IMG/VR virus record: IMGVR_UViG_3300046000_010347
Location: 1 to 22,437 of that record
Source: a virus
DNA: 22,437 nt
Direction: 5' to 3' (one strand)
Shown: positions 4,447 through 20,533 of the stretch, in pieces
How the letters are laid out: each line of letters opens with the position of its first letter
Position numbering within the stretch: position 1 is the first letter of the stretch
Notes under the pieces: generated by a model
The model's database searches: none
Seen by the model: only the letters and a program-made list of their open reading frames with translations
What the model was told of the DNA's origin: nothing
Position numbers and translations under genes: made by a program

Positions 4447-4452
4447 TTATTT

Positions 4453-5262: not shown

Positions 5263-5272
5263 AGTAATTAAG

Positions 5273-5836
5273 CTATTTAAAAATTATTTTTCCTTTTTCT
5301 CCGTTTGGTGGACGGAATCTTTTCATCATAACTTCAATTTTAGCCGAATCAACACCATGAAGGTTTCTTCTAGCTAATGTTTTTACATTTTGTTTATTTG
5401 GTTCAAATACAACATATAAAATTTCATATCCGTATTTTTCTGCCATATTTTCATATGGAGCTCTTTCTTTATCTGTTAAATTAGTATTGTCAATAACAAT
5501 TACACTTTTTTTCATTAGCATATTGTCATTGGCTTTGTTCATACATTCTCTATGAGCATCATGTAATTTTGAAGCATCGAATTTGTATTCTCCACTTTTT
5601 TCAAAATAATTATCTGCCGAGCATACTATTGGATTATTTGGTAATTTTTTAATAAATGTTGATTTACCTGAACCTGGTAATCCTACCATAATAATCAATT
5701 GTTTTTTTACTTCTTCATTTAATTGATTGAATGCTGTATGAAATGGATCTGAATACACTTCATGTTGATTGAATTGTTTTTTCCATCCATTTTCAATATC
5801 TTCAAATACTAAATCTAGTACGTCTTTTAATTTCAT
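5273..5836 (-). CDS. P-loop polynucleotide-kinase-like protein (N4BP2/AAA_33 type)
   Basis: A 187-residue P-loop kinase, probably phosphorylating 5'-OH ends of RNA or DNA. Residues 52-60 are a Walker A motif (GLPGSGKST). CSADNYF at 72-78, followed by YKFDASKLHDAH, matches the substrate Asp region of NEDD4-binding-protein-2-like kinases. VIDNTN at 114-119 is the second family signature, and ARRN at about 155-158 supplies lid arginines. It overlaps the HAD phosphatase gene by four bases (ATGA), so the two are translationally coupled. The pair recalls the two activities of T4 polynucleotide kinase/phosphatase, split into separate genes. The N-terminus MKLKDVLDLV resembles those of other genes here that start with MIKLKDL. 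The substrate cannot be told from sequence alone. Confidence 0.85.
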   Translation of the reverse strand: MKLKDVLDLVFEDIENGWKKQFNQHEVYSDPFHTAFNQLNEEVKKQLIIMVGLPGSGKSTFIKKLPNNPIVCSADNYFEKSGEYKFDASKLHDAHRECMNKANDNMLMKKSVIVIDNTNLTDKERAPYENMAEKYGYEILYVVFEPNKQNVKTLARRNLHGVDSAKIEVMMKRFRPPNGEKGKIIFK

Positions 5837-6378
5837 AGTTTTATATGTTCTGCTTCTGTAGTATGAACTACTTCTAATTTTATATTTGGATATTTTACTT
5901 TTAATCCTTCTACTGCTCTAACATTTTTAATAGAATCATCAATAAAAACAATATCATTATACCCTTTTTTTATTTCATTTTCTATATAATCAGCTTTTCT
6001 TTGTGGATTAGCATCTCCTAATGCAACGACATATATATCTAAATTATATTTTTTTTTAAGATAATTTTTAACTGGATAACCTAATTGTCTAGCAGTTAAT
6101 ATAGTTGTTTTAGTAGTTGGAGAACTAGCAGCTTGTTTCAATAAATCAATATTAGTTTTAATTGGCATTGCTATTTTAATTGCAGCATTGAATTCACGAA
6201 AGTTAAATGTATCTCCAGGCTTCGCATCATATACAGCAAATTCTGCTGGTGTAAGTATAGATTCTTTTCCTTTATTTTTAAGAATTATATTTGCTTTTAC
6301 TTTTGCTAAAGTATCGTCAAAATCAAAAATTCTCAATTTCTTTTCTTTTGCTTCTTTTATTAATTTAGTTATACTCAT
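5833..6378 (-). CDS. HAD-superfamily phosphatase
   Basis: A 181-residue haloacid-dehalogenase-fold hydrolase. Motif I is DFDDTL at 19-24 (nucleophile and acid Asp), motif II ILTAR at 93-97, motif III Lys128 in QRKADYI, and motif IV FIDDS at 145-149, so the catalytic set is complete. Close relatives, from memory, are common in marine T4-like phages, with the same 'LTPAEFAVY...GDTFNF' cap region. The substrate is unknown; next to a polynucleotide-kinase-like gene, a 3'-phosphatase role in end repair is plausible but inferred. Its start overlaps the end of phoH by 14 bases and its end overlaps the kinase by 4. The N-terminus MSITKLIKEAKE precedes the HAD fold and contains an I-x-E site. Confidence 0.87.
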   Translation of the reverse strand: MSITKLIKEAKEKKLRIFDFDDTLAKVKANIILKNKGKESILTPAEFAVYDAKPGDTFNFREFNAAIKIAMPIKTNIDLLKQAASSPTTKTTILTARQLGYPVKNYLKKKYNLDIYVVALGDANPQRKADYIENEIKKGYNDIVFIDDSIKNVRAVEGLKVKYPNIKLEVVHTTEAEHIKL

Positions 6379-7012
6379 AATCTAATATCTTACCTACTAA
6401 ATCACTTCTGTGGTTTTCTTTTAATTTTATCCATTCAATGCCATCTATTTTTTTAGATAACTCTATTGCATAGGTTAATCCTGAAATAGATTCATTTGTA
6501 TCTTGCTGTTCATTATCCCCGTTTATAATGATTTTACCGGTCTTTCCAAGGCGCGTTAAGATGGCTAGCATCTCTGACTTCGTGAGGTTCTGTGCCTCTT
6601 CTACAATTAGAACATCGTCTATTGTTTTACCTCTGATAAATTGTACTGGTAAAGCTTGAACTCTTTCTGTTTTAACGAAATCATCTATTTTAATTTTGTC
6701 CATGCATTTATACAAATTTTCAATAAGCGCTTCCATATATGGATTGAATTTGTCTTCTAAAGCCCCTGGTAAGAAACCTAAAGACCTACCAACTTCAATA
6801 GCACTGCGAGTAACTAATATTTTATCACATTGCTTTTTATTTAAAAAATCTAGAGCTGCTTGAGCGCCAACTAATGATTTTCCACTTCCTGCTCTTCCTG
6901 TTATAATAACAATTTGATTGTCTATTATTAACTGCTTAGCTTGTTTCTGTTCTTCATTTAAAACGACACTATATTTAATATCATTTTTTCTAACTCTATT
7001 AGGCTCTTTCAT
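6365..7012 (-). CDS. phoH: PhoH-like P-loop ATPase
   Basis: A 215-residue PhoH-family ATPase, related to the N-terminal domain of superfamily 1 helicases. It has Walker A GRAGSGKS (39-46), 'ILVTRSAIEVGRSLGFLPG' (65-83), typical of the family, Walker B VLIVEEAQN (134-142), 'IINGDNEQQD' as a sensor motif, and ENHRS near 199-203. Such genes are frequent in marine phages; proposed roles in phosphate stress or RNA metabolism are not settled. It is the first gene of a four-gene unit (phoH, HAD phosphatase, kinase, endolysin) directly downstream of gp23, with a promoter-like motif 16 nt before the ATG and a terminator-like hairpin further up. It is placed within the virion gene cluster rather than in an early region. 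Confidence 0.93.
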   Translation of the reverse strand: MKEPNRVRKNDIKYSVVLNEEQKQAKQLIIDNQIVIITGRAGSGKSLVGAQAALDFLNKKQCDKILVTRSAIEVGRSLGFLPGALEDKFNPYMEALIENLYKCMDKIKIDDFVKTERVQALPVQFIRGKTIDDVLIVEEAQNLTKSEMLAILTRLGKTGKIIINGDNEQQDTNESISGLTYAIELSKKIDGIEWIKLKENHRSDLVGKILDYEYN

Positions 7013-7027
7013 AAAATACTAATTTAT

Positions 7028-7037
7028 AATAAATATC
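7028..7037 (-). promoter_or_regulatory. Candidate late promoter motif for phoH-HAD-kinase-endolysin
   Basis: Coding-strand GATATTTATT followed by ATAAATTAG, almost identical to the motif before gp13. It lies 16 nt before the phoH ATG and downstream of the gp23 terminator-like hairpin. Confidence 0.6.
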
Positions 7038-7061
7038 AAATTAGTTCCTTTATATCAGTAG

Positions 7062-7087
7062 AAAAGGGGCTATTTCTAACCCCTTTT
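7062..7087 (-). terminator. Rho-independent terminator-like hairpin after gp23
   Basis: A perfect 8-bp inverted repeat, AAAAGGGG / CCCCTTTT, with a 10-nt loop, 25 nt beyond the gp23 stop codon. Read on the coding strand the stem ends in TTTT, the form of an intrinsic terminator. It separates the highly expressed capsid gene from phoH. Confidence 0.8.
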
Positions 7088-7112
7088 GAACTATTTATGT
7101 AAATCGTTTAGA

Positions 7113-8804
7113 TTATACTAAATGCAATCCGTGAACTTTAATAGTACCATAGAATTCAGGACGAACCATTTTCTTAGCATAACGAGTCATTACACCTTTA
7201 CGTGGAGTAAAGTTTGTAGGATCATATACTAATGGAGTCATGATTAATGGAATATAAGGAGCATATACAGCACCAGTTTCAAGGAATTGAGCACCTCTAT
7301 ATCCTAACAAGATAACGTTGTCAGTCATATAAGGATTTTTGTATACTGTGAATCTTGAATTCAACATACCTACTTTTTGAACACCCATTGCAAACTGCAT
7401 TTTAGTACCGTCTGTATCAGCAGCATATCCTGGGATAGACTCTAATATAGTAGCAACGTCTGGAGAACATACTAAGAAGTTTGCTCCACCACGCATAGTT
7501 TTTTGGTGAATTTTGTTAGATACTTTTTGAATTTTAGTTCCTAAAGTTTGGAACCAAGTTCCTTGAGTATAAGCAGTTCCTGTGAAACCTGCTTGACCAA
7601 ATGTATCAGTGTTTGAATTGAATTCATATCCTACTTGAGCAGACCATTTTTCAGTCGTTACTGCATTTTGGATCAACATATCTAAAATTTCTAAATCAAT
7701 CTCTTGAGAGATATATTCAGATAACATAGAAGTTAATTCAGCTTCAGCATCAATTGAGTGGTATGCATTTAAATCTTGAGCAAACTCTGGAGACCAAATT
7801 GCTTTTAATTTTCTTGTTTTAGCAACAATAGACTCTGATTTCAACTCTACGTTGATTTCTGGAATATTGATGTCTGTTCCATTTCCTAATGTATCTTGGA
7901 AATCACCTCTTGAATTAGAAGCTGGTTGTTTTTGATAACCAATTGCAATAGTTTCGCCTAATCCTGAATTTGTAATAGAACCTGATACAATAAATGTCAA
8001 TGTAGTGTCATTAACATTTTTAGTAAATTGTGGGTAGTAAGCAGTAATTTTAGCAGCTGTTGAACCTGAAATCAAATAAGCTCTTACACCTTCTAAATCT
8101 GCCTCGTTCAATAATGCAGCTGGTACAGTGATTTTTTTGAAGTGACCTGCAGCAATTGATGCTGAGTTAGCAGTTGTAAATTTTGAATCGTAATTGAATT
8201 CGTCAAAATCTGTATCTGCAGTCATTGTTAATGCAGCTGAAATAGATCCAGATGCAGTAGTTGATAAAGCAGAACCTGAAGCAGGTACATTAGTTGTTAC
8301 ATCATTGATTGAGAATCCAAATCTACCTGAACCATAAAGACCACCTGTTGGATCTTGATCCAATCCAGAAGTTACACCAAATACAGAGTTAGCTTGAAAT
8401 GCTGTAGTCGATGGGTTTGAAGTTCCTGGAGTTTGAGTTGAGTTAAATCCTGGTTGAGCAGTTCCGTATTTGAAATCCATATAGAACACTAGACCTGAAG
8501 GTAGGTTCATTGGTTGAACAGATACGAAATCTTTAGCAGCGATTTCAGCGAATACTCTTCTTACTAATGGTAAAGCAACACCTGACCATTGCTCAGAGTT
8601 TGCAGAAGTACCAGTTGAGTTAGCTTCTGTTACTAATTGTTTTGCTTGGTTTTCAAGCATGATCGCCATACCGTGTCTATCGTACTCGGTATCGATTCCT
8701 TCTAACAAACCGGTTTTTGACCATTTGCCTACTAGGCCTTTAGTCTCATCCATTTGTCTGCGAACAGCTGAATTGCTTTCGCCTAAAATTGATTGTAATG
8801 ACAT
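7113..8804 (-). CDS. 23: Major capsid protein gp23
   Basis: The hexameric shell protein of the head, 563 residues. The diagnostic stretch is at about 75-105: 'GVALPLVRRVFAEIAAKDFV' followed by SVQPMNLPSG, the gp23 'VRR....A.D..GVQPMN.P.G' signature. Further family features include the C-terminal 'PLVYDPTNFTPRKGVMTRYAKK' region (22 residues, about 528-549) and the preceding 'VYAPYIPLIMTP'. A variable Ser/Thr/Asn-rich insertion at about 120-285 is probably a surface domain. T4 gp23 loses its N-terminal 65 residues to gp21; here VTE|A at 58-61 is a plausible equivalent, with Val where the protease usually prefers Leu or Ile. The start lies after a poly-A leader without Shine-Dalgarno. No promoter motif lies directly before it, so it is probably co-transcribed with gp22, only 24 nt upstream. 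Confidence 0.97.
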   Translation of the reverse strand: MSLQSILGESNSAVRRQMDETKGLVGKWSKTGLLEGIDTEYDRHGMAIMLENQAKQLVTEANSTGTSANSEQWSGVALPLVRRVFAEIAAKDFVSVQPMNLPSGLVFYMDFKYGTAQPGFNSTQTPGTSNPSTTAFQANSVFGVTSGLDQDPTGGLYGSGRFGFSINDVTTNVPASGSALSTTASGSISAALTMTADTDFDEFNYDSKFTTANSASIAAGHFKKITVPAALLNEADLEGVRAYLISGSTAAKITAYYPQFTKNVNDTTLTFIVSGSITNSGLGETIAIGYQKQPASNSRGDFQDTLGNGTDINIPEINVELKSESIVAKTRKLKAIWSPEFAQDLNAYHSIDAEAELTSMLSEYISQEIDLEILDMLIQNAVTTEKWSAQVGYEFNSNTDTFGQAGFTGTAYTQGTWFQTLGTKIQKVSNKIHQKTMRGGANFLVCSPDVATILESIPGYAADTDGTKMQFAMGVQKVGMLNSRFTVYKNPYMTDNVILLGYRGAQFLETGAVYAPYIPLIMTPLVYDPTNFTPRKGVMTRYAKKMVRPEFYGTIKVHGLHLV

Positions 8805-8828
8805 GTTTTTTTGTTTTTTTATTTAAAA
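8805..8828 (-). promoter_or_regulatory. Poly-A leader of gp23 (no Shine-Dalgarno)
   Basis: The whole gp22-gp23 spacer reads, on the coding strand, as an A-rich leader with two runs of seven A (AAAAAAACAAAAAAAC immediately before ATG) and no purine-rich AGGAGG-like site. A-rich leaders that lack Shine-Dalgarno sites are known to support strong translation in Bacteroidota, which fits the expected high output of the capsid gene. Confidence 0.6.
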
Positions 8829-9737
8829 TTATTTTTTTGTTAGACCTGCTAACTTTTGAAAACGAGCAGATAACTCAGCACCTTCAGATAAAACTGTTCT
8901 TGATGGTTTTGTTGAAGCAACTGGTTTAGACGCAAATGATTCTTTAACTATTTTTTTAGATGATGGCATTTTAAATCCTTCAGCTAATGTTGAGTAAACT
9001 AATTTAACTTCACGTAAACTATGAGCTCTGTCAAAGTTTTCAACTACTTTCATTTTCTGTCCTTCATTCAATGAGAAATTACGGAATAATTTTCCAGAGA
9101 ATAAAAGTTTTGCATTCAATAAATTAACTTCATTGATTTTGCTTTTCAAGAAACGAATAACATTATATGCTTCTTCTAATTCTTCACTTGCAGGAGCTTC
9201 TTCTTCAGCTTCTTCATCTTCTTCTCTCAAAGAACGAATAATTTCATTGATGTCTACATCTTCTTCTTCACCTTCTTCTTCACTTAATGAATTCAAAAGT
9301 TCATTGATGTCTACATCTTCATCTTCTGCAGGCTCTTCTGTCGACATATCGTCTTCATATAAGTCAGCATCATCGTTTCCAATTTCTGATGAATCTAATT
9401 CTAATTCTCTGATAATAGATTCTAAATCTAAATCATCTTCCATTTCTTCTCCTTCTTCGACTGCGTCTTCTTCAGAATAATCTCCTTCTGTTACTTCGTC
9501 TTCTGCTGGAGCTTCTACCGGAGCTTCTACTTCTTCTTCGCCTTCTTCGCCTTCGCTATATGTACCTTCAACTTCAACTTCTTCTTCCTCTTCAGAAAGT
9601 TCTTCAGCTAATTTTGCAGATAACATAGATTGAAGTCTTGGAGCAAATGCTTCTTCCAATGCAATTTTAGCATTAGCTAGAGCGGTTTCTCTTACAGCTT
9701 TTGCATCAGCAATAGCTTCTTTTAATAAATCTTTCAT
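8829..9737 (-). CDS. 22: Prohead core scaffolding protein gp22
   Basis: The internal scaffold around which gp23 assembles, later cut to peptides by gp21. It is 302 residues (T4 gp22 is 269). It begins with a helical basic/Ala segment (MKDLLKEAIADAKAV), then an extremely acidic stretch at about 46-180, then a helical C-terminal half with 'YNVIRFLKSKINEVNLLNAKLLFSGKLF', typical of gp22 in marine T4-like phages. The acidic part carries three copies of a D-[LV]-D-[LI]-x-x-[IL]-[IL]-x-x-L unit (102-112, 141-151, 160-170), the last two 19 residues apart and encoded by near-identical DNA. Each ends in an L/I-x-E site expected for gp21. AGAGGA lies 7 nt before the ATG. It sits directly upstream of gp23, as in T4. 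Confidence 0.9.
   Translation of the reverse strand: MKDLLKEAIADAKAVRETALANAKIALEEAFAPRLQSMLSAKLAEELSEEEEEVEVEGTYSEGEEGEEEVEAPVEAPAEDEVTEGDYSEEDAVEEGEEMEDDLDLESIIRELELDSSEIGNDDADLYEDDMSTEEPAEDEDVDINELLNSLSEEEGEEEDVDINEIIRSLREEDEEAEEEAPASEELEEAYNVIRFLKSKINEVNLLNAKLLFSGKLFRNFSLNEGQKMKVVENFDRAHSLREVKLVYSTLAEGFKMPSSKKIVKESFASKPVASTKPSRTVLSEGAELSARFQKLAGLTKK
9222..9434 (-). repeat. In-frame repeats in gp22 encoding acidic protease-site units
   Basis: The clearest DNA repeat is a 21-nt identity at 9243-9263 and 9300-9320, a 57-nt (19-codon) period encoding DVDINE[LI][LI]. A more diverged third unit, DLDLESIIREL, precedes them. The units end with IRE, LSE and LRE, matching the gp21-type L/I-x-E consensus. 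Confidence 0.85.
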
Positions 9738-9744
9738 GTGTTTG

Positions 9745-9750
9745 TCCTCT
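9745..9750 (-). promoter_or_regulatory. Shine-Dalgarno site of gp22
   Basis: Coding-strand AGAGGA, 7 nt before the gp22 ATG. It is notable because most genes here lack any such site; only the gene at 10708-11478 (AGAGGA, also 7 nt) and gp14 (AGGA, 7 nt) are comparable. Confidence 0.7.
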
Positions 9751-9811
9751 TATTTTTTAAAAATCGGAAATAAGATTATTAGGAATCTTAATAGAATAAA
9801 TACTATCATGC

Positions 9812-9839
9812 ACCTTATATGAAGTAATGTTAATAAGGT
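9812..9839 (-). other. Weak hairpin in the gp22 leader
   Basis: A 7-bp inverted repeat, ACCTTAT / ATAAGGT, with a 14-nt loop, within the 175-nt gap before gp22. It is AT-rich and lacks a clear following T-run, so a terminator role is doubtful. It could shape the gp22-gp23 leader RNA. Confidence 0.35.
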
Positions 9840-9847
9840 ATTGTGCG

Positions 9848-9897
9848 TTATACAAATAAATATGGGCATGCGTTAGAAAACATGCCCTTTTGTATAA
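9848..9897 (-). terminator. Two-part inverted repeat with embedded promoter-like motif, upstream of gp22
   Basis: Inner arms GGGCATG (9864-9870) and CATGCCC (9881-9887) form a GC-rich stem. Outer arms TTATACAAA (9848-9856) and TTTGTATAA (9889-9897) pair perfectly around it. The asymmetric bulge between the left outer and inner arms (9857-9863) holds the core of an ATATTTAT motif, and another copy overlaps the right outer arm. It lies 15 nt after the stop of the 262-aa gene, so it probably ends the upstream prohead unit, while the motifs could start the gp22-gp23 unit. Confidence 0.65.
9855..9864 (-). promoter_or_regulatory. Candidate late promoter motif for gp22-gp23 (copy inside hairpin)
   Basis: Coding-strand CATATTTATT, directly following the GC-rich stem. 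It is 118 nt before the gp22 ATG, so it would give a long leader. A degenerate copy (GTATTTAT, 9796-9803) lies closer, 58 nt before the ATG. Confidence 0.45.
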
Positions 9898-9902
9898 ATA
9901 TT
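9893..9902 (-). promoter_or_regulatory. Second candidate promoter motif upstream of gp22
   Basis: Coding-strand AATATTTATA, 11 nt after the stop of the 262-aa gene and just upstream of the hairpin at 9848-9897. If active, its transcript would run straight into the hairpin, so the copy at 9855-9864 is the better candidate. Confidence 0.35.
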
Positions 9903-9912
9903 TTAAAAAACT

Positions 9913-10701
9913 TTAAGATTTGATAATATTACCAATTAAAGTTTTAAGTATAGCAACTGTCATATCTCCACCTTTAAGTGCATCTACAACTAAATGTGTT
10001 ATTTTTTCTAGGTCTGTACCTAAATGAGCTACTGCTGTTTTCAAACCTGTTATTCCTTCTAATGAATGAAATACTCCGGCGCCGGCTACACCTATCATAA
10101 TAATAGCGTATATCAACTCTGCTGCTTGCTCAGCGTTTTCTTTTAACCATTTGCTGCCGTTAAGAAAAGCAACACCTTGAAGTATTTTTTTAATAGGATA
10201 CACAAAAGCTTCATGAGCCATATGTGCTAATTTACCTAACGCTTTTCCTACTTTAGATGCATACACTTTATCATGCAATTCATGAATTTTTTCCTTGTCC
10301 CCTGATTTGTAAGCAGCTTCTAATTCTTTTTTGTATCCATCTAGCTCTTTTCTCTCTTCTGATGATAATGCCATTTTAGCATAACACCAATCAATTAGTT
10401 TTCCTAACAATTTAAGTAATGTAGGAGAAGCTAATATCAAAGTAAGTACTAAACTTTCATTTAATACATCTTCAGTAATTTCAGGATCTGATTCAATTGC
10501 ATCTAAACTAACATCTTCCGGAGATTTGTTAGTTAAGTTTTTATTTTCTAAATCCTTTGCAATGCCTTTTAATAATTTTTCTAAATCAGCGTCTGACGCT
10601 ATTCCTGCTTCTGCTAACATCATTCTGTCTGTTCTAGACAATGACTCTTTAACTAATATAGCAGCTCTAGTATGTCTAGGTATAGCATCAATTAATCTCA
10701 T
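9913..10701 (-). CDS. Unknown prohead-region protein with two membrane-like segments
   Basis: A 262-residue protein of unknown function between gp21 and gp22. Two strongly hydrophobic segments are seen: residues about 83-103 (SLVLTLILASPTLLKLLG) and 195-213 (ELIYAIIMIGVAGAGVF), with a weaker one at the C-terminus (249-260). Between them is a charged helical stretch (SSEERKELDGYKKELEAAY). The first 80 residues are soluble and contain several acidic L/I-x-E-like sites. Its place in the prohead block suggests an internal or core protein, possibly ejected with DNA and able to insert in membranes; similar genes, from memory, occur at this place in marine T4-like phages. A holin cannot be excluded, but the size and location argue against it. 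It follows the 256-aa gene with a 6-nt gap and has no promoter motif or Shine-Dalgarno of its own. Confidence 0.75.
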   Translation of the reverse strand: MRLIDAIPRHTRAAILVKESLSRTDRMMLAEAGIASDADLEKLLKGIAKDLENKNLTNKSPEDVSLDAIESDPEITEDVLNESLVLTLILASPTLLKLLGKLIDWCYAKMALSSEERKELDGYKKELEAAYKSGDKEKIHELHDKVYASKVGKALGKLAHMAHEAFVYPIKKILQGVAFLNGSKWLKENAEQAAELIYAIIMIGVAGAGVFHSLEGITGLKTAVAHLGTDLEKITHLVVDALKGGDMTVAILKTLIGNIIKS

Positions 10702-10707
10702 TATTTT

Positions 10708-11478
10708 TTATTCTTTTGATTTATCTTCTTTTGATTTTGCTTCGGCTTCTGCTTTCTTTTTAGCTTCTTCTTCTCTAGATACATAATTAGCATCTACCCA
10801 ATTGAATAATTTTTTCTTTGCTTTATCATCTTCTAAATCTGATGGCTCTTGAATTTTAAATTTCTTCATTGCTTTTTGAAAGAATCTTTGATAATCTTGA
10901 CCTGAACCAGCTACCATTGAAGCTTCATTGACCATGCCACCAATATCATAATATTTACCTAAAGTAGATCCAATATCTTCATATGATGATTCAAGACGTT
11001 GTTGAAGTGTTGCCATTTCATGAGCAGTCTTTTCAAATATTTTGTGAGCTTCTCCTAAATGTTTCATATGACGACCTACTGTCTGTCCATCAAACCAATC
11101 TTCAGTTTCTGCTAATGTTAAATTAGATGCAGCTTCAATTAATTCTCCTAAATACTGAGCCGTCTCTTTGATATTATGATTTCTATAAATACTATTTGCA
11201 TGCTCTGCAAAGTGATATACTGCTTCAACAAAAGCTTTCTTTTGTTTAGTAGTCATGTTAGCAGTTAAATTTTCGTTTTCACGAAGATTAATTAACGATG
11301 CTAATTTAATTGGTCCTGGTTTCATATCTTCTAAATTTAATGATTCGGCGTGCATGTGTAAAGCAGCCAGGTATTTTCTTAATGCTTCTTTTGTTCCTTT
11401 TGTTTTTCCAACTAATTTGCCCGTGTCCTTTTTATACACAGCATATTGGTCTCCTTGTTTTTTTACCGAATATGGCAT
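10708..11478 (-). CDS. Three-part prohead-region protein of unknown function
   Basis: A 256-residue protein. Residues 1-45 (MPYSVKKQGDQYAVYKKDTG, then KTKGTKEALRKYLAALHMH) form a small module also found, from memory, as a stand-alone protein or N-terminal domain in many phages. Residues about 85-185 are helical, with 'QYLGELIEAASNLTLAETEDW' (21 residues, about 108-128) and 'HKIFEKTAHEMATLQQRLESSY'-like heptads. Residues about 205-240 hold 'FFQKAMKKFKIQEPSDLEDDKAK'-type sequence and FNWVDANY, another short module seen at the C-termini of phage internal proteins. The last 20 residues are a Lys/Glu/Ala-rich tail. AGAGGA sits 7 nt before the ATG, inside the end of the upstream gene. Role unknown; a virion-internal or core protein is the best guess from context. 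Confidence 0.75.
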   Translation of the reverse strand: MPYSVKKQGDQYAVYKKDTGKLVGKTKGTKEALRKYLAALHMHAESLNLEDMKPGPIKLASLINLRENENLTANMTTKQKKAFVEAVYHFAEHANSIYRNHNIKETAQYLGELIEAASNLTLAETEDWFDGQTVGRHMKHLGEAHKIFEKTAHEMATLQQRLESSYEDIGSTLGKYYDIGGMVNEASMVAGSGQDYQRFFQKAMKKFKIQEPSDLEDDKAKKKLFNWVDANYVSREEEAKKKAEAEAKSKEDKSKE

Positions 11479-11479
11479 A

Positions 11480-11878
11480 TTAGAATCCTCTAGACGAGAA
11501 TTTGTTATTCATAAACAATATAGTGCCTAATGTTAATCCATTAGACCCGCCTTGAGGATGTTTATAATCAAAACCGAATTGAAAAGCATATCCTCCAATT
11601 TGGTCTCTTAATTCTGTTACCATAATACGAATATCCAATGATCTGAATAAAGCTTTTAGTACAGGAGTTTTAATTTCTTTATCTAATGAAACTACATAAT
11701 ACAAAGCATCTCCTTGACTTCTACCGGCTAATGCTGGTAATCCGGCATTGATGCCAGTTTGAGTTTTGAAATAAGCCATACAAGCTTTTAAAATTTGCTC
11801 TGATGGTTCTTGAATATTTTCTTGAAGTGCTAAACGAACTTCAGATTCTATTAATTTTTTAAGTTGTGAGTTTAACAT
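11480..11878 (-). CDS. Unknown 132-aa protein next to the prohead protease
   Basis: I do not recognise this protein. It begins with a helical segment (MLNSQLKKLIESEVRLALQE, ending in candidate protease sites), followed by a mixed alpha/beta body with 'GLPALAGRSQGDALYYVVSL', 'LFRSLDIRIMVTELRDQIGG' and a Gly/Phe-rich C-terminus (GTILFMNNKFSSRGF). The N-terminal part resembles the helical leaders of other proteins in this cluster. It lies 3 nt downstream of gp21 and one base upstream of the next gene, so it belongs to the same prohead unit. A head-internal or capsid-associated role is inferred from context only. Confidence 0.7.
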   Translation of the reverse strand: MLNSQLKKLIESEVRLALQENIQEPSEQILKACMAYFKTQTGINAGLPALAGRSQGDALYYVVSLDKEIKTPVLKALFRSLDIRIMVTELRDQIGGYAFQFGFDYKHPQGGSNGLTLGTILFMNNKFSSRGF

Positions 11879-11881
11879 TGT

Positions 11882-12496
11882 TTATTGTTTTGTGTCAGTT
11901 AATATATCAGTTATCAATCTATTTACATTATCATATTTAGATGATTGTTGTTTTTGATTGTGATTGACAGATTCATGCATTGGTGCTAAAAACGCTCCTT
12001 GAGTTGATGGGTTAGATACAAAATCAAAAGCAATTAATTCAAAGTCATCTTGCACTTCAACTTCTGATTCTCCAAGCTGTTTAACAGACCCTAAACCACG
12101 GCTCGAGATGCCTAATTTAATACCGCATTTGAATAATTCTTTTAAGATGTTCCCTGAAGGTGTTGATAAAACCTCTACAGTACCTACTAAATCATTTCCT
12201 TCCCAATGCATTTCAGTAATATTGTGAGATACATTGTTTAAGTTAACAACTGAAGAATCTGGATGGTCTAACTCTCCTAACGCTCTTCTTTCTTTGATAT
12301 TAATATCAGAATACTTTTTAGCTTCACGCATTAATATATTTCTAGGATATTTACGACCATTTTGATTCAAAGCGTCTGCTCTTTGCAATACACCTTTCAC
12401 CATTAATCGACCTCCGTTTTTCTCCATAGACTCATTTATCTTTTCTGGCGAAATGTCAAATGTAATATAGTCTACTAATAATTTTTTATTTTCCAT
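11882..12496 (-). CDS. 21: Prohead core protease gp21
   Basis: The serine protease (peptidase family S77/U9, herpesvirus-assemblin-like fold) that matures the prohead by cutting after L/I-x-E. It is 204 residues (T4 gp21: 212). The catalytic His is in GELDHPDSSVVN (H78) and the catalytic Ser in KLGISSRGLGS (S131 or S132), the family's signature pair. The 'GRKYPRNIL' and 'DFVSNPSTQGAFL' stretches are also typical. Probable targets in this window are gp22, gp23 and several small neighbours with N-terminal L/I-x-E sites. It sits between gp20 and gp22 as in T4, in a tightly packed seven-gene unit. Confidence 0.95.
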   Translation of the reverse strand: MENKKLLVDYITFDISPEKINESMEKNGGRLMVKGVLQRADALNQNGRKYPRNILMREAKKYSDINIKERRALGELDHPDSSVVNLNNVSHNITEMHWEGNDLVGTVEVLSTPSGNILKELFKCGIKLGISSRGLGSVKQLGESEVEVQDDFELIAFDFVSNPSTQGAFLAPMHESVNHNQKQQSSKYDNVNRLITDILTDTKQ

Positions 12497-12500
12497 AATA

Positions 12501-12761
12501 TTATTTCATGTATAATTCAGAAGCCATCTTCATGAAAGTTGATTCCTTAATATTTGTTTTAAGTTTTTTTACTTTTTTATAACCTAATATTTCAACTGTC
12601 TCATCGTCTACGTCACCGAAAGCTCCTGGCACGTCATACCCGCCTGCGCCTGCTGCTACGGACATTTCATCTAAATCTTCCTCTTCTTCTAAAAAAGGAT
12701 TAACTTCTTTGATAACAGATTCTGTTAAACGAGGCTTTTTAAATGTATCTATATATGACAT
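12501..12761 (-). CDS. Small acidic prohead-region protein
   Basis: An 86-residue protein with an acidic stretch at about 25-32 (EEEEDLDE) after 'LTESVIKEVNPF', then a Gly/Ala-rich turn (AAGAGGYDVPGAFGDVDD) and a basic C-terminus (YKKVKKLKTNIKE). IKE near residues 17-19 is a candidate gp21 cleavage site. Position, size and charge recall the small T4 core proteins gp67/gp68 that lie between genes 20 and 21, but I see no clear sequence match. The 'AGAGGY..P.AFG' type of motif appears in several small T4-like phage proteins, from memory. It is separated from gp21 by 4 nt. Confidence 0.72.
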   Translation of the reverse strand: MSYIDTFKKPRLTESVIKEVNPFLEEEEDLDEMSVAAGAGGYDVPGAFGDVDDETVEILGYKKVKKLKTNIKESTFMKMASELYMK

Positions 12762-12771
12762 AAATTATTGT

Positions 12772-13086
12772 TTAGTAATATAATATTGTTATATCGCCTC
12801 CGCCTGAAGCAGAAACGTATGATAATTGAATTGGAAATAATTGATGATTTTGACTAGCCTCATGAAAATCAGCTCCTATATATCCAGTACCATTTGATCC
12901 TGATAATATTACAGAACCGGTATTCATTATAATAAAAGCTGCATTGTTTGCAAAGCTTCCTGTCAATGTTAAAGGATTGTTTGTAGTTGCTGTAACACGA
13001 ACTGTTTTAGAAAATGAACCATTTGCATCTTGTTGATGATATGCATTTTGAAATGAATAAGTTGGGTCTAATGGATTAAATGGCAT
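12772..13086 (-). CDS. Unknown small beta-rich protein
   Basis: A 104-residue protein I cannot assign. It is rich in Ser, Thr, Asn and Gly, with alternating hydrophobic residues (TVRVTATTNNPLTLTGSF, then AAFIIMNTGSVILSGSNGTG), predicting an all-beta fold. This is the composition of small decoration or virion surface proteins, but no family is recognised. It is squeezed between the 282-aa gene (2-nt gap) and the acidic 86-aa gene (10-nt gap), so it is expressed with the prohead unit. No signal peptide or membrane segment is seen. Confidence 0.7.
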   Translation of the reverse strand: MPFNPLDPTYSFQNAYHQQDANGSFSKTVRVTATTNNPLTLTGSFANNAAFIIMNTGSVILSGSNGTGYIGADFHEASQNHQLFPIQLSYVSASGGGDITILYY

Positions 13087-13088
13087 AA

Positions 13089-13937
13089 TTACGCTTTTTT
13101 AAGTTCTTTAATTAATTCGTGATAACGTAACAAATTCAATACATGATTGTCTTTTACTGTTTTCACAGCTGCTACTTCTTTTAAAAGATTGGTAACTTCT
13201 GCTAATTTAATCTTAACAACTTTATCAGTTACTTTCGTAGTCAATACTTTAAGTTCTTTTTGAAGTTTCAAAGATTCTTTTTCAATGAATTCTTTTAGTT
13301 CAGTTCCTTCTGATACTGAATTGATATAGTGTCTTAACAAAGATTTCTGCCCTTCATTTAAATCTGAATATTTGGCATTGAATTTATCAACTAATATCTT
13401 ATAAGATAATAGTCTAACATCTTTGTCTTGATTGATAAATGCAGACATTTCATTTAACCCAGATGTTTTCTTAACATCATTGCTACGAGTTATATGCTCT
13501 ATAATAGTATATTTGTTATTTACTGATTCTACAGGATTGTCTGCCACAGTATATTCAAATAATTTATAAATAGCTGCTAGAGTTTTATAATTATTAACTT
13601 TAGATTTAAAGAAATCTTCTAAATTGTAATTAGATTTAATTTCTTTAATCAAGTTATATTTTTGTCTATTTAAGATAGTTTGATTGATAGCCGATCTCGC
13701 TGACATCACTGCTTCAATTAAATGACTGGCCTTCTCTTCTTTTGAGAAACGTTCTTTAACTAAAGTTTGATACAAATTAAATTCTTTTGCTAACTCCGTA
13801 GATTTAGAAAAATGTTTTTTAATCAGCGGAATCGCCTTTGAATCATTATTGTTCAAAGTATCAGACGCAACTTGTCGTACTAGTAATTCGAATAGTACGC
13901 CAGTGTTCTTAAATTTCGAGTGCTTTAAATTTTTCAT
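13089..13937 (-). CDS. Helical prohead-region protein of unknown function
   Basis: A 282-residue, Lys-rich, almost wholly helical protein. It begins MKNLKHSKFKNTGVLFELLV, followed by RQVASDTLNN and 'IPLIKKHFSKSTELAKEFNLYQTL'-like sequence; this N-terminal pattern ('KHSK.KNTG.LFE.L.RQ') is one I associate with a conserved unknown of T4-like marine phages found next to the portal gene. The C-terminal 70 residues are coiled-coil-like (KESLKLQKELKVLTTKV onwards). It heads the seven-gene prohead unit after gp20, with a promoter-like motif 25 nt before the ATG. A head assembly or core role is inferred from position. Confidence 0.8.
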   Translation of the reverse strand: MKNLKHSKFKNTGVLFELLVRQVASDTLNNNDSKAIPLIKKHFSKSTELAKEFNLYQTLVKERFSKEEKASHLIEAVMSARSAINQTILNRQKYNLIKEIKSNYNLEDFFKSKVNNYKTLAAIYKLFEYTVADNPVESVNNKYTIIEHITRSNDVKKTSGLNEMSAFINQDKDVRLLSYKILVDKFNAKYSDLNEGQKSLLRHYINSVSEGTELKEFIEKESLKLQKELKVLTTKVTDKVVKIKLAEVTNLLKEVAAVKTVKDNHVLNLLRYHELIKELKKA

Positions 13938-13961
13938 TCAGGCTTATGTTATTTCTTTAAT

Positions 13962-13971
13962 AATAAATATG
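13962..13971 (-). promoter_or_regulatory. Candidate late promoter motif for the prohead/gp21 unit
   Basis: Coding-strand CATATTTATT followed by ATTAAAG, 25 nt before the ATG of the 282-aa gene and 15 nt after the gp20 stop. No other exact copy was noticed until after the seven following genes, so it may serve all of them. Confidence 0.58.
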
Positions 13972-13985
13972 AAGATTGTTATGTT

Positions 13986-15866
13986 TTAAATTCCTTCTGG
14001 TAAGATATTTGCCTCATCTATCATACTAATTGTTTCATTTAGTATCAATGATTTTTTCGTTACTAGTTTCTCTAAACCATATTTTTTAATGACATCGGTA
14101 GATTCATTTCTAGCATTCTTCCATGCTACTCTACCTGTTGGGTCATAACCTCTCGGATGTGCATGAGTATTATACTTCACACCTTCTTTAGGTCTACCTG
14201 CTCCTGGCCATCCACCTTCAGGAACTTTAGGAGTTTTTCTTTCCTTTTTTTCCTTTTCTTCATATTCTTTTTCAAGATCTTTATCTACGCCTTCTCCAAA
14301 TGGGTTTGCGCCTTTATCTTCTTCTTTTTCTTCCCCTTCAGCCCCGCCTTCTTTTTCTTTAGCGGCGTCAGCTTCTTCTTGAGCTTTTTTCTTTTTATTA
14401 AATTCTGATTCTGGATCTTCCCCATCTTCAGCAATTTTAGTTGCTCTGTAAACGTCTTTTTGATCTTTAATTATACCAGCTTCAATTTCAATTACATCTT
14501 CTGGAGTAAAGTTAAATACATTTTTATAAATCCATTCTTTAGATATAATTTTACCTTCAAGCATAGATTTTGCTAAATCGACTTTGGTATTATATAAAGT
14601 TAGTTTTTCTTGCTCATATATAGTAGATGGAGAAGTCATTGTTAAATCAAAGTCTAATAACTCAGCATTTTCAAATCCTTGTGCAGATAAATGTACTACA
14701 GCAATTTTGTAAAGTTCTGAAATTATTATTCTTTGTATTCTTTCAATTGTTCTAGCAAAACGAACATCTTCAGCTGCTAATGTTGCTTTACCACCTATTC
14801 CTTCTTCATAACCAATGAAAGCTTTTGGTATTTTCAAACCAGCCATCATTCTATTTCTTAAGTACTCAATATCATCTATTCCTGTAAATTCCATACCTGC
14901 TAAAGTATCAATTTCAGTTCCAGATTGACCTCCCCTTACAGGTAAGAAATAATCTTCTAACATGTTTTGCATGTTAAACTTCAAATTGTAATCTCCCGTT
15001 TGTTGATCAACATAAGGAGTCTTTTTCATTTGGTTGATAATTTTTTGCATGTAATTATCAACTTCTGCAGGAGGTATATTACCTACATCAATTTTAAAGA
15101 TTCTCTTTTCAGGAGCTCTCATTATTCTATGAATTAACATTGCATCTTCCATCAATGTTAATTGTTTCCAAACTTTTCTACCTCCTTCAATCATTGATTT
15201 ACCATATGGTAAGAAGTTTGAATCATTTAATAAACGGAAATGTGCTATTTCAAAATTTTCATAAGTAATATTACCGCCACCTAATTGTTTAAACTGAACG
15301 TGATATGGATTTGCTGGGTCCATTCCTTCTTCTCGAACAATTTCATATGCTGATAAAGGAACTACATTCATAATTCCTACTTCTTCTTGAATGTCTAAAT
15401 GTAAATAGAAATCTCCATATTTACACATATTTCTAACCCATGGCCATAAATTGAAATCTATATTTAAAATATCATAAAATAAATTGTGAAGTATCTTTTT
15501 TACATTTTCATTTTCGCTGGTAATTCTTAATACGTCACCAAAATCATCTTTCATTACAGTTTCATCAGCATATATATCTAATGCCGATGCTATAATTGAA
15601 TCTTGGTCCATTACTTCATAATCTGTATATAATTCAGTCTTTGAAGAAAAGTAATTGTAATTTGGATTATATGTATTTAGTGAATTTGGTCTTACTCCAT
15701 GTAATCTAGTAAACCTATCAATAAATTTTGAATTGTGTACGTTACCCGTAGACTGTAAGTGGTCAGAGTCAATTACTCGTAACTTATCCTTGCCTACTTT
15801 ACGCACTATTACATTAGTATTGAAAAGTCGTTTTAAACGGCCATATAATGTTTTATCGTCTGCCAT
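13986..15866 (-). CDS. 20: Portal vertex protein gp20
   Basis: The dodecameric portal through which DNA enters and leaves the head, and the initiator of prohead assembly. It is 626 residues (T4 gp20: 524). The body shows gp20 features: 'ELYTDYEVMDQDSIIASALD' followed by IYADE, 'WPWVRNMCKYGDFYLHLDI', 'VPLSAYEIVREEG', 'FRLLNDSNFLPYGKSMIEGG' and 'DDIEYLRNRMMAGLKIPKAF' followed by IGYEE. The extra length is mostly C-terminal: residues about 481-550 are a charged, low-complexity Lys/Glu insertion, followed by a Gly/Pro segment and a helical end. It has its own promoter-like motif 20 nt before the ATG. It directly follows gp17, without the gp18-gp19 pair found between them in T4. Confidence 0.96.
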   Translation of the reverse strand: MADDKTLYGRLKRLFNTNVIVRKVGKDKLRVIDSDHLQSTGNVHNSKFIDRFTRLHGVRPNSLNTYNPNYNYFSSKTELYTDYEVMDQDSIIASALDIYADETVMKDDFGDVLRITSENENVKKILHNLFYDILNIDFNLWPWVRNMCKYGDFYLHLDIQEEVGIMNVVPLSAYEIVREEGMDPANPYHVQFKQLGGGNITYENFEIAHFRLLNDSNFLPYGKSMIEGGRKVWKQLTLMEDAMLIHRIMRAPEKRIFKIDVGNIPPAEVDNYMQKIINQMKKTPYVDQQTGDYNLKFNMQNMLEDYFLPVRGGQSGTEIDTLAGMEFTGIDDIEYLRNRMMAGLKIPKAFIGYEEGIGGKATLAAEDVRFARTIERIQRIIISELYKIAVVHLSAQGFENAELLDFDLTMTSPSTIYEQEKLTLYNTKVDLAKSMLEGKIISKEWIYKNVFNFTPEDVIEIEAGIIKDQKDVYRATKIAEDGEDPESEFNKKKKAQEEADAAKEKEGGAEGEEKEEDKGANPFGEGVDKDLEKEYEEKEKKERKTPKVPEGGWPGAGRPKEGVKYNTHAHPRGYDPTGRVAWKNARNESTDVIKKYGLEKLVTKKSLILNETISMIDEANILPEGI

Positions 15867-15885
15867 AATTAATTAAGTGATTTTA

Positions 15886-15895
15886 AATAAATATC
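15886..15895 (-). promoter_or_regulatory. Candidate late promoter motif for gp20
   Basis: Coding-strand GATATTTATT followed by TAAAAT, 20 nt before the portal ATG and 26 nt after the gp17 stop. Confidence 0.58.
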
Positions 15896-15920
15896 TAAAA
15901 TAATAAGAACCAAGTTATTT

Positions 15921-17516
15921 TTACAACAACCATCTTAAATCTTCATCTTGAGTATTTCCTTGACGACCTGTTTGCATTGTCCATCCAGCATTGTTTAAAG
16001 TTCCACTAGCACCATAAACACCAGACCCTCTTCCAAAATTATCTAAAGTTTTTCTATTTAATTCAATCCCTTGTTGACGTAATTGTAATGCTGTATCCCG
16101 TATCCAAAGTCCAATACAAAATGCCATTGTTAAATCGTCATTGTATCCTCTTTGAGCTTCTGCTTTTGAGCCATTCCAAATAAATACCATAAGTTCATCT
16201 ATTAATCGCTTACTGCGAATTACTGGAACTCTTTCTCTCATATACGTATCTAATTTAGATATTACCAAAGGACGAGTTCTTGATGAAGTAGTAAATCCTG
16301 CTGTCATATTTGCAGTGTCTTTTAAATCTACATATCTAGATAATTGTTGAGATACGTCTGATAATTGACCATCTTTAGGAGAATAATATAAATTTTTATA
16401 GCCTCTATCAATTACTACTTGAATAGCTGCCCATCCAACATTTGCATTTTCAATTACTAATAAAGCATCATTATATTCAGTTGCTATGTTTACTAACATA
16501 TTACCATAATCCGTAGTACTTATTTGCCCTTTATACTCCGCAACTTGAGTTACTGATTCTACATCAATTACGTGGAAAGCAGAATAATCTCCTCCATCTC
16601 CACGAGCAACGTCTGCTACTACTATATAATCTCTGGAATAGTCAGGCTGTTCCCAAGTCCATAAATTGCTATCTATACCTCGTTTTTCTTGAGGTTCTTG
16701 AACTGTAGTTTGTTCATACCATTGTAAAGTAGCTCCTTCAATTACAGTATGACCAGAAGTAGTAAAGTCACAATCACATTCTTGAGCAGCTGCTTTAATT
16801 CCTAATAATACATCCTGCTTATCTCTCCATGTTTGGTTTCGATCAGGGTGCACTGTCCAATGCAGCTTAATAGTATTGAATATAGAATTTGGATTAGTTT
16901 CGGCATCTACCCATGTTTTATGAAAGAAATTACCTGTACCGTTAGGTGTTGATAAAATAATTGCTCCTCCTCCTAATGCTAATGTTTGTTGAGCAGAAGT
17001 CCAAATTTCTTCTACATTGGAAATAAATGCTGCCTCATCTACAATCAATAAAGACAATGCTTCAGAACGTCCTGAATCGCCTGATGAAGAAGTTGCTTTG
17101 ATTTGTGAACCATTATTTAAACGAAGTGATAATTTATTATCTTCATTAGCTGGTAATTTCAGCCATGAAGGTAAATTTTCATACATTACTTTTACTTTTA
17201 ATACTAAATTCTTTGCAACCTCTTGTTTAGTTGCAATAACTAAAATATTTTTATCACTGAAGAAAGTCATTAGCCAAAGGGAATATCCCGCTGATAATGT
17301 GGATATGCCTAACTGTCTAGACTTAAGTATGATGTTATAATCATTGTCTCGAAGTTCTAATAAAGCTTCTTCTTGAAATGGATATAAGTGAAAAGGTATT
17401 TTACCTTTTTGTGGGTGTTGAATTTGACAATATTTTTTCATGAAGTGTACAGGGTCTTGTAAACACTTTTTATATTCTTCACGAATAATATTCTTTAATG
17501 TATTAGCATCAGCCAT
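15921..17516 (-). CDS. 17: Large terminase subunit gp17 (packaging ATPase and nuclease)
   Basis: The motor that pumps DNA into the prohead and cuts the concatemer. It is 531 residues (T4 gp17: 610). ATPase domain: a Walker A-like loop KSRQLGIST at 65-73, Walker B LLIVDE at 156-161, and the coupling motif STPNG at 189-193. Nuclease domain: D302 in VVADVARGDGGD, E356 in LVIENAN and D460/D461 in NDDLTMAF, the RNase H-like acidic triad. In T4 the loop reads SRQLGKT; here the Lys of GKT is Ile, and a Lys stands at the loop's start (K65), a variant known in many terminases. It starts 3 nt after the stop of the second spanin-like gene, apparently co-transcribed with it. No gp16 is next to it. Confidence 0.97.
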   Translation of the reverse strand: MADANTLKNIIREEYKKCLQDPVHFMKKYCQIQHPQKGKIPFHLYPFQEEALLELRDNDYNIILKSRQLGISTLSAGYSLWLMTFFSDKNILVIATKQEVAKNLVLKVKVMYENLPSWLKLPANEDNKLSLRLNNGSQIKATSSSGDSGRSEALSLLIVDEAAFISNVEEIWTSAQQTLALGGGAIILSTPNGTGNFFHKTWVDAETNPNSIFNTIKLHWTVHPDRNQTWRDKQDVLLGIKAAAQECDCDFTTSGHTVIEGATLQWYEQTTVQEPQEKRGIDSNLWTWEQPDYSRDYIVVADVARGDGGDYSAFHVIDVESVTQVAEYKGQISTTDYGNMLVNIATEYNDALLVIENANVGWAAIQVVIDRGYKNLYYSPKDGQLSDVSQQLSRYVDLKDTANMTAGFTTSSRTRPLVISKLDTYMRERVPVIRSKRLIDELMVFIWNGSKAEAQRGYNDDLTMAFCIGLWIRDTALQLRQQGIELNRKTLDNFGRGSGVYGASGTLNNAGWTMQTGRQGNTQDEDLRWLL

Positions 17517-18519: not shown

Positions 18520-19023
18520 TTATTTTTTATCTTTAACTGGGCCGCCTACTATCCATGAATTACATGTTCTAGACCCGGCACATTTGAATTTATGCATCAT
18601 ACAATATCCTAATTTTCCTGCTTCTATTGTATCCCATGCATCTGCTGCTGCATTTTCTGTGTCATCTAATTCTGGCTCAGGTGCATTAAACTCATCACCT
18701 TCCATTACATTTGGAGCTTGAGATACATCTGGTTCAGCATCTAATGCTTTTGCAATACAATTTAAAATTGGAGTAGTAATGTTAAATGCGGCACATGTAT
18801 TACATCTAGATGATTTAGCTTCATCTATTGTTTCCATTTGCCATTTTTCAGCTTTTGCTTTCCAAAATTTAATATTTGGGTTGTTTGGATTCAAAGGACC
18901 ATATCCATACTTATCAATTGCTGTCTGTCTATGTGCTAAATTTACTTCTAAATTTTGAGTAGCTACAGGACATTTTGGTGCGACATCTTCGCCTTCTTTT
19001 ATTAAATCTTTTAATTTTATCAT
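18520..19023 (-). CDS. Cysteine-rich protein with HiPIP-like pattern, conserved-unknown type
   Basis: A 167-residue protein with seven Cys: 18, 74, 77, 89, 141, 148 and 154. The core RCNTCAAF (73-80), LGYCMMHKFKC (138-148) and RTCNSWIVGGP (152-162) has the order C-x2-C ... C ... C-x-x-W seen in high-potential iron-sulfur proteins, so metal or Fe-S binding is plausible. Genes with 'PLNPN.PN..FWKAKAE.W' and this Cys block occur, from memory, in many marine T4-like phages and remain unassigned. Residues 95-130 are acidic. It begins MIKLKDLIKE, nearly the same as the gene just upstream, which is one base away. No export signal is seen. The biochemical role is unknown. Confidence 0.8.
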   Translation of the reverse strand: MIKLKDLIKEGEDVAPKCPVATQNLEVNLAHRQTAIDKYGYGPLNPNNPNIKFWKAKAEKWQMETIDEAKSSRCNTCAAFNITTPILNCIAKALDAEPDVSQAPNVMEGDEFNAPEPELDDTENAAADAWDTIEAGKLGYCMMHKFKCAGSRTCNSWIVGGPVKDKK

Positions 19024-19024
19024 A

Positions 19025-20533
19025 TTATTTTAAATTTAAAATAGATTCTTTAAGCATAGATTCTCTTCTTTTATTTACTGATTCTTGTTTAGCGTCTGTT
19101 GTTTTAGGAGTAATCAAATTTACCTTTCCTGCCTTCATATCAACACCCCATTTTTCAGAGTTACTTACCCCTGGTTGTGGCATTGAGTCTCTTGATGGTG
19201 CCCAATCTTCTGGTTTTGATTTATCTAACATAGTTTTAACATTGGTAACTATTCTGTTAGCAATAGCGTTATCTGATTCAACTCCATTATCTGCCCAAAC
19301 ATTTCTAGCTTTTTCAGTTAAATTTTCATCTACGTATGATTTAACTTTCTCAGGAGTAAATGCTAATAAATTTCCTGCTTTTAAGTTAGCTGAAATTGTT
19401 TTAGTTTCGCCTGAGTCGACTGCAATTGCAGTATGTACAGCTTTTAGTATATCTTTAGGATCTATTTTACCAGTTACATTAATTGCAGAAATTTTAGCAT
19501 TTGGATTAGCTGCATATACTTGTGACCATCTATGGTGCCCGTCTAAAACAAATTTTCCATTATAGGTAATAATTGGATCTGGAAATGTAGCGTTGCCTTT
19601 AAGGAATCCATCTAATGAACCATATTGATCTGTTAATATATTTTTTAAACTTTCTTCAGCTCCAATTTCATTTTGTGTTGGCTTAAGAATTTTAGCGGCA
19701 TATGAAGCTTCTGCTACATTGAATTTTTCATCGTTTGGCTTACCATCTGTTAAACCTGCTTTTAACGCTGCTAATATTTTTGGATCTGATTGGTATTTTT
19801 TAAGTAAATTTACATAACTTTCAACAGAATCAGATTGAAATGCATTTGATAAATCATCTAATTTATATTGCTCCCCATCTTCTTTTAAAATTGATTCTGT
19901 TTGAAGCGCAACTTTAACTAATTTTAATACTTCAGAATTTTTATTATAAAATAACAACAAGTCACTTAATAAACTTTTAAAAGAAGCATAAGGATCTAAC
20001 CTTGCTATCATTATAAAGTCTTGAATTTGTTGTTTTGTATTATTATTTTTTATAGTGGCTTTTATAGAATTTAAAAACGAATCTACTTTTGAAGCATCGG
20101 TATTAGCCATTTCAACTACTTTACCTTTTTTTTTCAAAGCCTCTTTTATGTTTTCTGTATTTTTTGGCAATTTTGCTAGCTTATCATATGCTGCAGTGTC
20201 AACACCTTTTTGAAGTTTTTTATCCCCAAATGCAGCTTGTTCTAAATCTTTATCTGTTGGCATTTCAATAACATCTTCTTCAGTGAACCATCCTTCTACC
20301 ATTGCAGCGGCGTTCATTGCTTGAGCAACATCACCTTGTTTAGCATCTGGAAATTTATCAAATCCTAATTTATAGAATTCATCATAATCACAATCAGCTG
20401 CTAATTTTTTCAATTGAGTTTTGTTTTTTGAAACAAAATCTAATACAGCATTTGTAGTTGATTGTAAATCTACAGTTTGAACTTCTGGTTTTTTTGCTTC
20501 AACTTCTTTTAAAAGGTCTTTTAACTTTATCAT
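19025..20533 (-). CDS. Large protein with ParB/sulfiredoxin-like domain
   Basis: A 502-residue protein. Residues about 315-375 contain 'PDPIITYNGKFVLDGHHRWS' followed by QVYAANP, the signature of the ParB N-terminal/sulfiredoxin-like nucleotide-binding fold, with DGHHR at 331-335. The first 300 residues are mostly helical and Lys/Asp-rich without a recognised domain. Residues 445-455 hold PSRDSMPQPG. The N-terminus MIKLKDLLKEVEAKK shares its first residues with the next gene (MIKLKDLIKE) and contains L-K-E, a candidate gp21 site. A plasmid-partition role is unlikely in this setting. ParB-like folds in phages include CTPases, nucleases and ADP-ribosyltransferase-like enzymes, so I assign only the fold. 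It could be an internal protein delivered with DNA. Confidence 0.8.
   Translation of the reverse strand: MIKLKDLLKEVEAKKPEVQTVDLQSTTNAVLDFVSKNKTQLKKLAADCDYDEFYKLGFDKFPDAKQGDVAQAMNAAAMVEGWFTEEDVIEMPTDKDLEQAAFGDKKLQKGVDTAAYDKLAKLPKNTENIKEALKKKGKVVEMANTDASKVDSFLNSIKATIKNNNTKQQIQDFIMIARLDPYASFKSLLSDLLLFYNKNSEVLKLVKVALQTESILKEDGEQYKLDDLSNAFQSDSVESYVNLLKKYQSDPKILAALKAGLTDGKPNDEKFNVAEASYAAKILKPTQNEIGAEESLKNILTDQYGSLDGFLKGNATFPDPIITYNGKFVLDGHHRWSQVYAANPNAKISAINVTGKIDPKDILKAVHTAIAVDSGETKTISANLKAGNLLAFTPEKVKSYVDENLTEKARNVWADNGVESDNAIANRIVTNVKTMLDKSKPEDWAPSRDSMPQPGVSNSEKWGVDMKAGKVNLITPKTTDAKQESVNKRRESMLKESILNLK

Follow-up and report, generated by a model that had tools for sequence, protein, structure and literature searches.

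A shared ten-residue gene start, probably a capsid-targeting propeptide of T4 type, in the head operon of a T4-like phage and on many unrelated proteins of its relatives

Two adjacent genes in the head operon of a T4-like phage, one for a ParB-like protein and the other for a Cys-rich protein, begin with nearly the same ten residues, MIKLKDLLKE and MIKLKDLIKE, and this shared start is real and beyond chance. The leader is probably a T4-type capsid-targeting propeptide, which would serve both packaging and cleavage, and comparison with related genomes suggests that it is a portable tag that belongs to a set of three or more interchangeable classes. These leader classes, the cargo cassettes in which they occur and the make-up of the "ParB-like" ORF, two tagged genes fused into one, seem to be new; no description of these leaders in this clade was found in a literature that was short of most subscription journals. 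The window, by which we mean the whole stretch of 22,437 bases analyzed, is a fragment of a T4-like phage with its likely genes on the minus strand, and the closest host-assigned isolates of its clade include Flavobacterium phages. The ParB-like and Cys-rich genes lie directly before the terminase gene in reading order, inside the head operon (Table 1).

Table 1. Features of the window that bear on the leaders; a slash marks a predicted or known cut
Feature	Position	Strand	Basis and remarks
Leader-like MSITKLIKE/A of HAD-type phosphatase (5833-6378)	6352..6378	-	Homologue starts MIKLKYLLKE
gp23 major capsid protein	7113-8804	-	Pfam/PHROG
gp22-like scaffold/core protein	8829..9737	-	Position, sequence features; starts MKDLLKE/A, ends ARFQKLAGLTKK
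Internal leader-like IKLASLINLRE (residues 57-67) of 10708-11478 protein	11278..11310	-	Sequence
Class B leader MLNSQLKKLIESEVRLALQE of 11480-11878 protein	11819..11878	-	In orthologues the EPSEQ body follows class A-like leaders
Prohead core protease, peptidase family S77 (T4 gp21), presumed leader peptidase	11882..12496	-	Pfam 3.7e-30; PHROG 207, 2.9e-55
gp20-type portal	13986-15866		Position and sequence
Large terminase	15921-17516		Position and sequence
Cys-rich protein	18520-19023	-	167 aa, start MIKLKDLIKEGEDVA
Cys-rich body	18520..18993	-	DSL-LC01 homologue annotated high potential iron-sulfur protein
Class A leader MIKLKDLIKE of Cys-rich protein, predicted cut after E10 (E/G)	18994..19023	-	Sequence, 20 homologues
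ParB-like ORF	19025-20533	-	502 aa, start MIKLKDLLKEVEAKK
Predicted C-half with ParB/sulfiredoxin-like domain, invariant DGHHRW, ends ESMLKESILNLK	19028..19879	-	Alignment, model
Internal predicted protease site TESILKE/D, residues 212-218	19880..19900	-	Remnant of C-half gene leader
N-half of ParB-like ORF, residues 11-218	19880..20503	-	In relatives a gene of its own with a leader, e.g., L005 1791-2699, L017 8160-9077
Class A leader MIKLKDLLKE of ParB-like ORF, predicted cut after E10 (E/V)	20504..20533	-	Sequence; same leader type on other bodies

An earlier note, made from the letters of this DNA alone, had pointed out the two starts and had counted 16 identical bases among their first 19; the places, the starts and the count are all correct, and over the first 30 bases 25 are identical. 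Beyond the leader the identity falls to 25 of 60 bases and upstream of it to 15 of 40, and thus the leader alone is common to the two genes, whose bodies are otherwise unrelated, just as had been claimed. All base changes between the two leaders are synonymous except the one for L8I. Since the identity stops at the leader and the changes are mostly synonymous, a recent DNA duplication was rejected. When the leader is back-translated as MIKLKD[LI][LI]KE, at least 120 stretches in IMG/VR viral contigs match it, whereas the peptide read backwards has no match in the same contigs. Among the matches listed, the leader begins at the first Met of the ORF in 76 of 81 cases and stands on about 42 body groups that do not match each other. 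A genome-wide search for leader-like starts, of the kind that the earlier note had suggested, gave 9 of 242 genes under a strict pattern in a relative of 181,588 bp (G001) and 10 of 163 in another of 132,303 bp (G002); with shuffled N-termini of these two, the mean was at most 0.006 such starts, and never more than one appeared in 2000 trials. Internal methionines of the same two genomes match the strict pattern only once in 1134 and not at all in 759 cases. A chance likeness is ruled out by the reversed-order control, by the shuffles and by the number of matching stretches. As for individual residues, of 95 starts that show the hydrophobic pattern, 84 carry E as their tenth residue (the remainder do not), and the residue after the predicted cut varies among A, V, D, L, S, and E. 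In an alignment of 20 Cys-rich homologues picked by their bodies and not by their leaders, M1, L4, and E10 are invariant, I2, K3, and K9 nearly so, and position 7 is L or I throughout, while the linker after the leader varies.

Then, what could such a leader do? In T4, ten residues are enough for packaging, targeting depends on positions 4 and 7 and processing on 8 and 10 (PMC9026906), and the internal proteins of T-even phages have only this capsid-targeting sequence (CTS) in common (PMC3012670). The leaders here match these positions with L4, L/I7, L/I8, and E10. For T4 IPIII, the change E10D is reported to allow entry into the head but no cut. The earlier note had likened the present leaders to a T4 leader MKTYQEFIAE in length, charge and ending: the hydrophobic spacing of 4, 7, and 8 and E10 do agree, but the charge does not, being about +1 here and about -1 in MKTYQEFIAE, and that sequence fits IPII and IPIII but neither Alt (MELITELFDE) nor IPI (MKTFKEFTSTTT). 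When 269 T4 ORFs were scored by a matrix built only from 18 class A leaders, gp24 (MAKINELLRE) ranked first with 6.6 bits, the next having 3.4, while IPII and IPIII ranked only 68-69. By sequence, therefore, the leaders are of the gp24 type and not of the IP type. Likeness to the IP consensus, which failed here, is a trait of the IP subtype and not of gp21 propeptides in general, so that the leaders are filed with gp21-type propeptides by mechanism.

The S77 protease, presumed to cut the leaders, is found in 16 of 30 contigs with class A leaders and in 15 of 21 with class B leaders (contigs larger than about 30 kb), and in 8 of 9 and 8 of 8, respectively, if contigs of 87 kb or more are taken (16/17 together); those without it (14/30 and 6/21) are mostly fragments, one being of 146 kb. 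As a figure for comparison, though not from size-matched contigs, 2492 of 50,697 named phage records have a gp23-like capsid protein. Phage DSL-LC01 encodes a Cys-rich domain 44% identical to that of the window in a protein with no leader, and it has no S77 protease; this natural comparison, in which protease and leader are both missing, points the same way. Microcystis phage Mel-JY01, in which S77 is present, has a ParB domain behind MGILKQLLKE, keeping L4, L7, L8, and E10. Taken together, the reversed-order control, the N-terminal placement, the co-occurrence with the protease, the swapping of leaders at the junction, the ranking of T4 ORFs and the missing leader in the S77-less case lend strong comparative support to the idea, put forward in the earlier note, of a capsid-targeting sequence cleaved by gp21.

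At least three classes of leaders can be distinguished. Class A is MIKLKD[LI]LKE; class B, of about 20 residues, is MKKSELRxLIREEVxxxLxE; and class C, on ParB-like bodies, is MKxxLIxEAxRLQKLAGIxxE. The class B pattern likewise has at least 120 matching stretches in viral contigs, and, among the matches listed, it is at the first Met in 75 of 83, ends with [LIV]xE at residue 20 in 54 of 83 and stands on about 42 unrelated body groups. Orthologous bodies exchange leader classes exactly at the predicted cut. The C-half of the ParB-like protein is found as MIKLSTLLKE/DETQDKLDDLS and as MKQELITEAARLQKLAGILKE/DETQDKLDDLS, an ADP-ribosyltransferase as MIKLRDILNE/AKQVGILYHYT and as MKKSQLKQLIKEEILKALNE/GKQVGTLYHFT, with BLAST similarity of this pair starting at LNE of the predicted cut, and a swap occurs also in the family of the 11480-11878 protein. 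The region 3,072-16,264 of G002 has 20 genes, of which 17 have a class A or B leader as judged by eye, and it forms a cargo cassette. Leaders may label both standing head proteins, such as the pair in the window, and a variable cargo cassette. In the isolate Flavobacterium phage vB_FspM_immuto (NC_055915), which has S77, genes begin with the leader-like MIKLIDLLTE (24569-24994), MISIYNILKE (103366-103806), and MRLLELLRE (112261-112575). A further start of this sort, M..FDLKKFLVENKLTTNSKILKE, is repeated there on three genes (103806, 117631, and 118632) and is a possible fourth class.

Other genes of the window carry similar elements. The 10708-11478 protein is encoded between the protease and the scaffold, and proteins with related bodies have MIKLKDILKE as their start. 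Polynucleotide kinase and HAD phosphatase are encoded side by side in 5273-6378, each by a gene of its own, both with leader-like starts (MKLKDVLDLVFED and MSITKLIKE/A), and a PhoH-like gene (6365-7012) adjoins this pair. The gp23 proteins of the clade have a conserved QL[VI]xE site (E60 in the window), the counterpart of FLTE/A in T4 gp23; the N-terminus MSLQSILGE/S of the capsid protein was not kept among the class A leaders, since Glu is missing from this place in many relatives. Pfam and PHROG searches with the scaffold protein (8829-9737) gave no match. A check for late promoters with the T4-like TATAAATA gave no signal, a result that carries little information.

The ORF that the earlier note had called ParB-like deserves its name only in its C-half, and it is not a single gene: it is composed of two genes fused, as in several relatives the two halves are separate and each has its own leader. 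The Glu at the junction is invariant in all 22 homologues of the C-half. The C-half is predicted to have a ParB/sulfiredoxin-like fold, with a model of pLDDT 91, a viral ParB/Srx match (E 2e-20, TM 0.84) and ParB as the best match in PDB (E 8e-3, prob 0.96), and Pfam ParBc_2 is found in 5 of the 22 homologues. Its C-terminus ESMLKESILNLK (19028-19063) is conserved across homologues and contains LKE/S, which, by analogy with what is reported for T4 Alt, is a possible C-terminal protease site. Another relative, G010, has one ORF that joins the ParB half to the Cys-rich protein and retains MIKLIDLLKE internally. The head protease would separate such fused products. The same genome has a GIY-YIG-like ORF (L155 11355-11990) between two ParB-half genes, which by eye resembles T4 Seg homing endonucleases. 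The Cys-rich protein shows strong conservation among about 50 related loci; its DSL-LC01 homologue is annotated as a high potential iron-sulfur protein, searches of the body against Pfam, PHROG, NCBIfam, and PDB gave no match for HiPIP or other proteins, and the structure model (pLDDT 40) is unusable.

Are these two proteins injected to take over the host early in infection, as the earlier note had supposed? We consider this unlikely. Their location in the head operon beside the terminase and the conservation of the Cys-rich protein in about 50 loci make them look more like standing internal components of the head, and no host-directed activity was predicted for either. More likely effector candidates would be the HYD1-type ADP-ribosyltransferases in the cassettes of relatives, whose bodies stand behind leaders of class A and of class B; the HYD1-type match of the cargo is above the Pfam cut-off (2e-5) and that of a homologue below it (6e-4). 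NT5C nucleotidases and an exonuclease of RNase T type (7.8e-11) are further effector candidates among the cassette genes. Weak Pfam matches of the cargo, such as GtgE and DUF6934, were discarded as below the cut-off.

How might a leader bring its protein into the head? As a ten-residue amphipathic helix, it would dock the protein on the growing scaffold core via hydrophobic residues 4 and 7, and after docking the shell would close; then the S77/gp21 protease would cut after E10, recognizing L/I8 and E10, and the mature protein would stay in the head with the DNA and might be injected. The gp22-like scaffolds of the clade (8829-9737 in the window and related loci) end with R[FM][QK]KLAG[LI], the motif found in class C leaders. 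This KLAG motif was counted 33 times close to a C-terminus, in nearly all cases of gp22-like scaffolds, 18 times at ParB-like N-termini and once elsewhere. We propose that leaders may mimic scaffold ends. To go further, it might be possible, though we hold it only tentatively and with somewhat more doubt than belief, that this is a general protein-loading system whose interchangeable addresses copy the ends of the scaffold (class A resembling the start MKDLLKE and class C the end RFQKLAGL), by which some two dozen proteins per genome would be loaded, including ADP-ribosyltransferases, nucleases, and nucleotide enzymes, some of the cargo being fused polyproteins that the head protease would split inside the prohead.

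Could the leader bind scaffold or capsid as an address that is never cleaved, so that E10 would merely belong to the helix that binds? Such an address would suit a helix conserved over its whole length at the protein level, and the resemblance of class C leaders to the scaffold C-terminus ARFQKLAGL suggests binding mimicry. Nevertheless, it is improbable, because variation at residues 5, 6, and 11-16 contrasts with a fixed E10, because the junction Glu stays invariant whichever leader stands before it, and because L/I-x-E agrees with the site in the capsid protein and with the logic of gp21. An address to a partner outside the head, such as chaperonin or another site of phage assembly, is less probable still. 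A short N-terminal address can indeed serve other partners, as the N-terminus of T4 gp23 was reportedly found to direct proteins to GroEL (by Snyder and Tarkowski in 2005, cited in PMC10052503), and some genes with leaders are outside the head operon; it is hard to reconcile with the finding of this leader type on a protein whose gene lies between those of protease and scaffold, with the match to the gp24 propeptide and with the lack of the leader where S77 is lacking.

The slightest chance is given to an effect at the DNA level with no function of the peptide, either an AT-rich translation start or a recombinational duplication of gene starts. Neighboring genes do start alike here and starts rich in lysine and AT are common, but the mostly synonymous differences and the lack of any match to the reversed-order peptide speak against it; a fixed Glu10 has no known role in initiation, and leader classes of unequal length replace one another. 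The capsid-targeting propeptide is thus the reading that we prefer.

Packaged or injected proteins of uncultured phages are normally not recognizable from sequence. As the same tag is on dozens of unrelated proteins in the related uncultured phages, a list of the proteins predicted to be packaged, and perhaps injected, could be drawn up with nothing but the sequence. Should the leaders truly be address tags, gene starts would reveal the set of packaged proteins in a large group of T4-like phages. That set would consist mostly of proteins of unknown function, plus ADP-ribosyltransferases comparable to T4 Alt. Through the natural leader swaps, experiments on the routing of cargo to a prohead by a peptide of ten residues are already at hand, and the leaders, if true, would be portable tags for loading heads of Bacteroidetes phages.

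Among known systems, the leaders would be a much expanded variant of the T4 mechanism. The capsid-targeting sequences of T4 IPI-III and Alt, reportedly described by Mullaney and Black in 1996, are alike in having about ten N-terminal residues with hydrophobic positions 4, 7, and 8 and Glu10 on unrelated bodies, and in the same S77 protease family. They differ from those described here, where aliphatic residues replace Y/F and the net charge is about +1 instead of -1, and where there are far more bodies per genome, three or more interchangeable classes, cargo cassettes, and internal leader copies in fused ORFs. The uncharacterized T4 gp61.1 (AF158101 18966-19130) also has a CTS-like start, MKTFKEFIKED. 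The closest T4 sequence is the propeptide of gp24, MAKINELLRE/S, which is cut by gp21 and shares K3, I/L4, E/D6, L7, L8, K/R9, and E10; however, gp24 is a vertex protein of the shell, whereas here the same type is on candidates for internal proteins. In phage P1, a short N-terminal packaging signal of DarB brings a reporter into the head (PMC9024508); P1 is said to have no separate T4-like scaffold (PMC9024508), and the likeness to the DarB signal is by description, not by sequence. Head and ejection proteins of the giant phages phiKZ and SPN3US have N-terminal propeptides on packaged proteins that are cut by the prohead protease (PMC5694885), but several of these exceed 100 residues, while the leaders here are of ten to about twenty-two.
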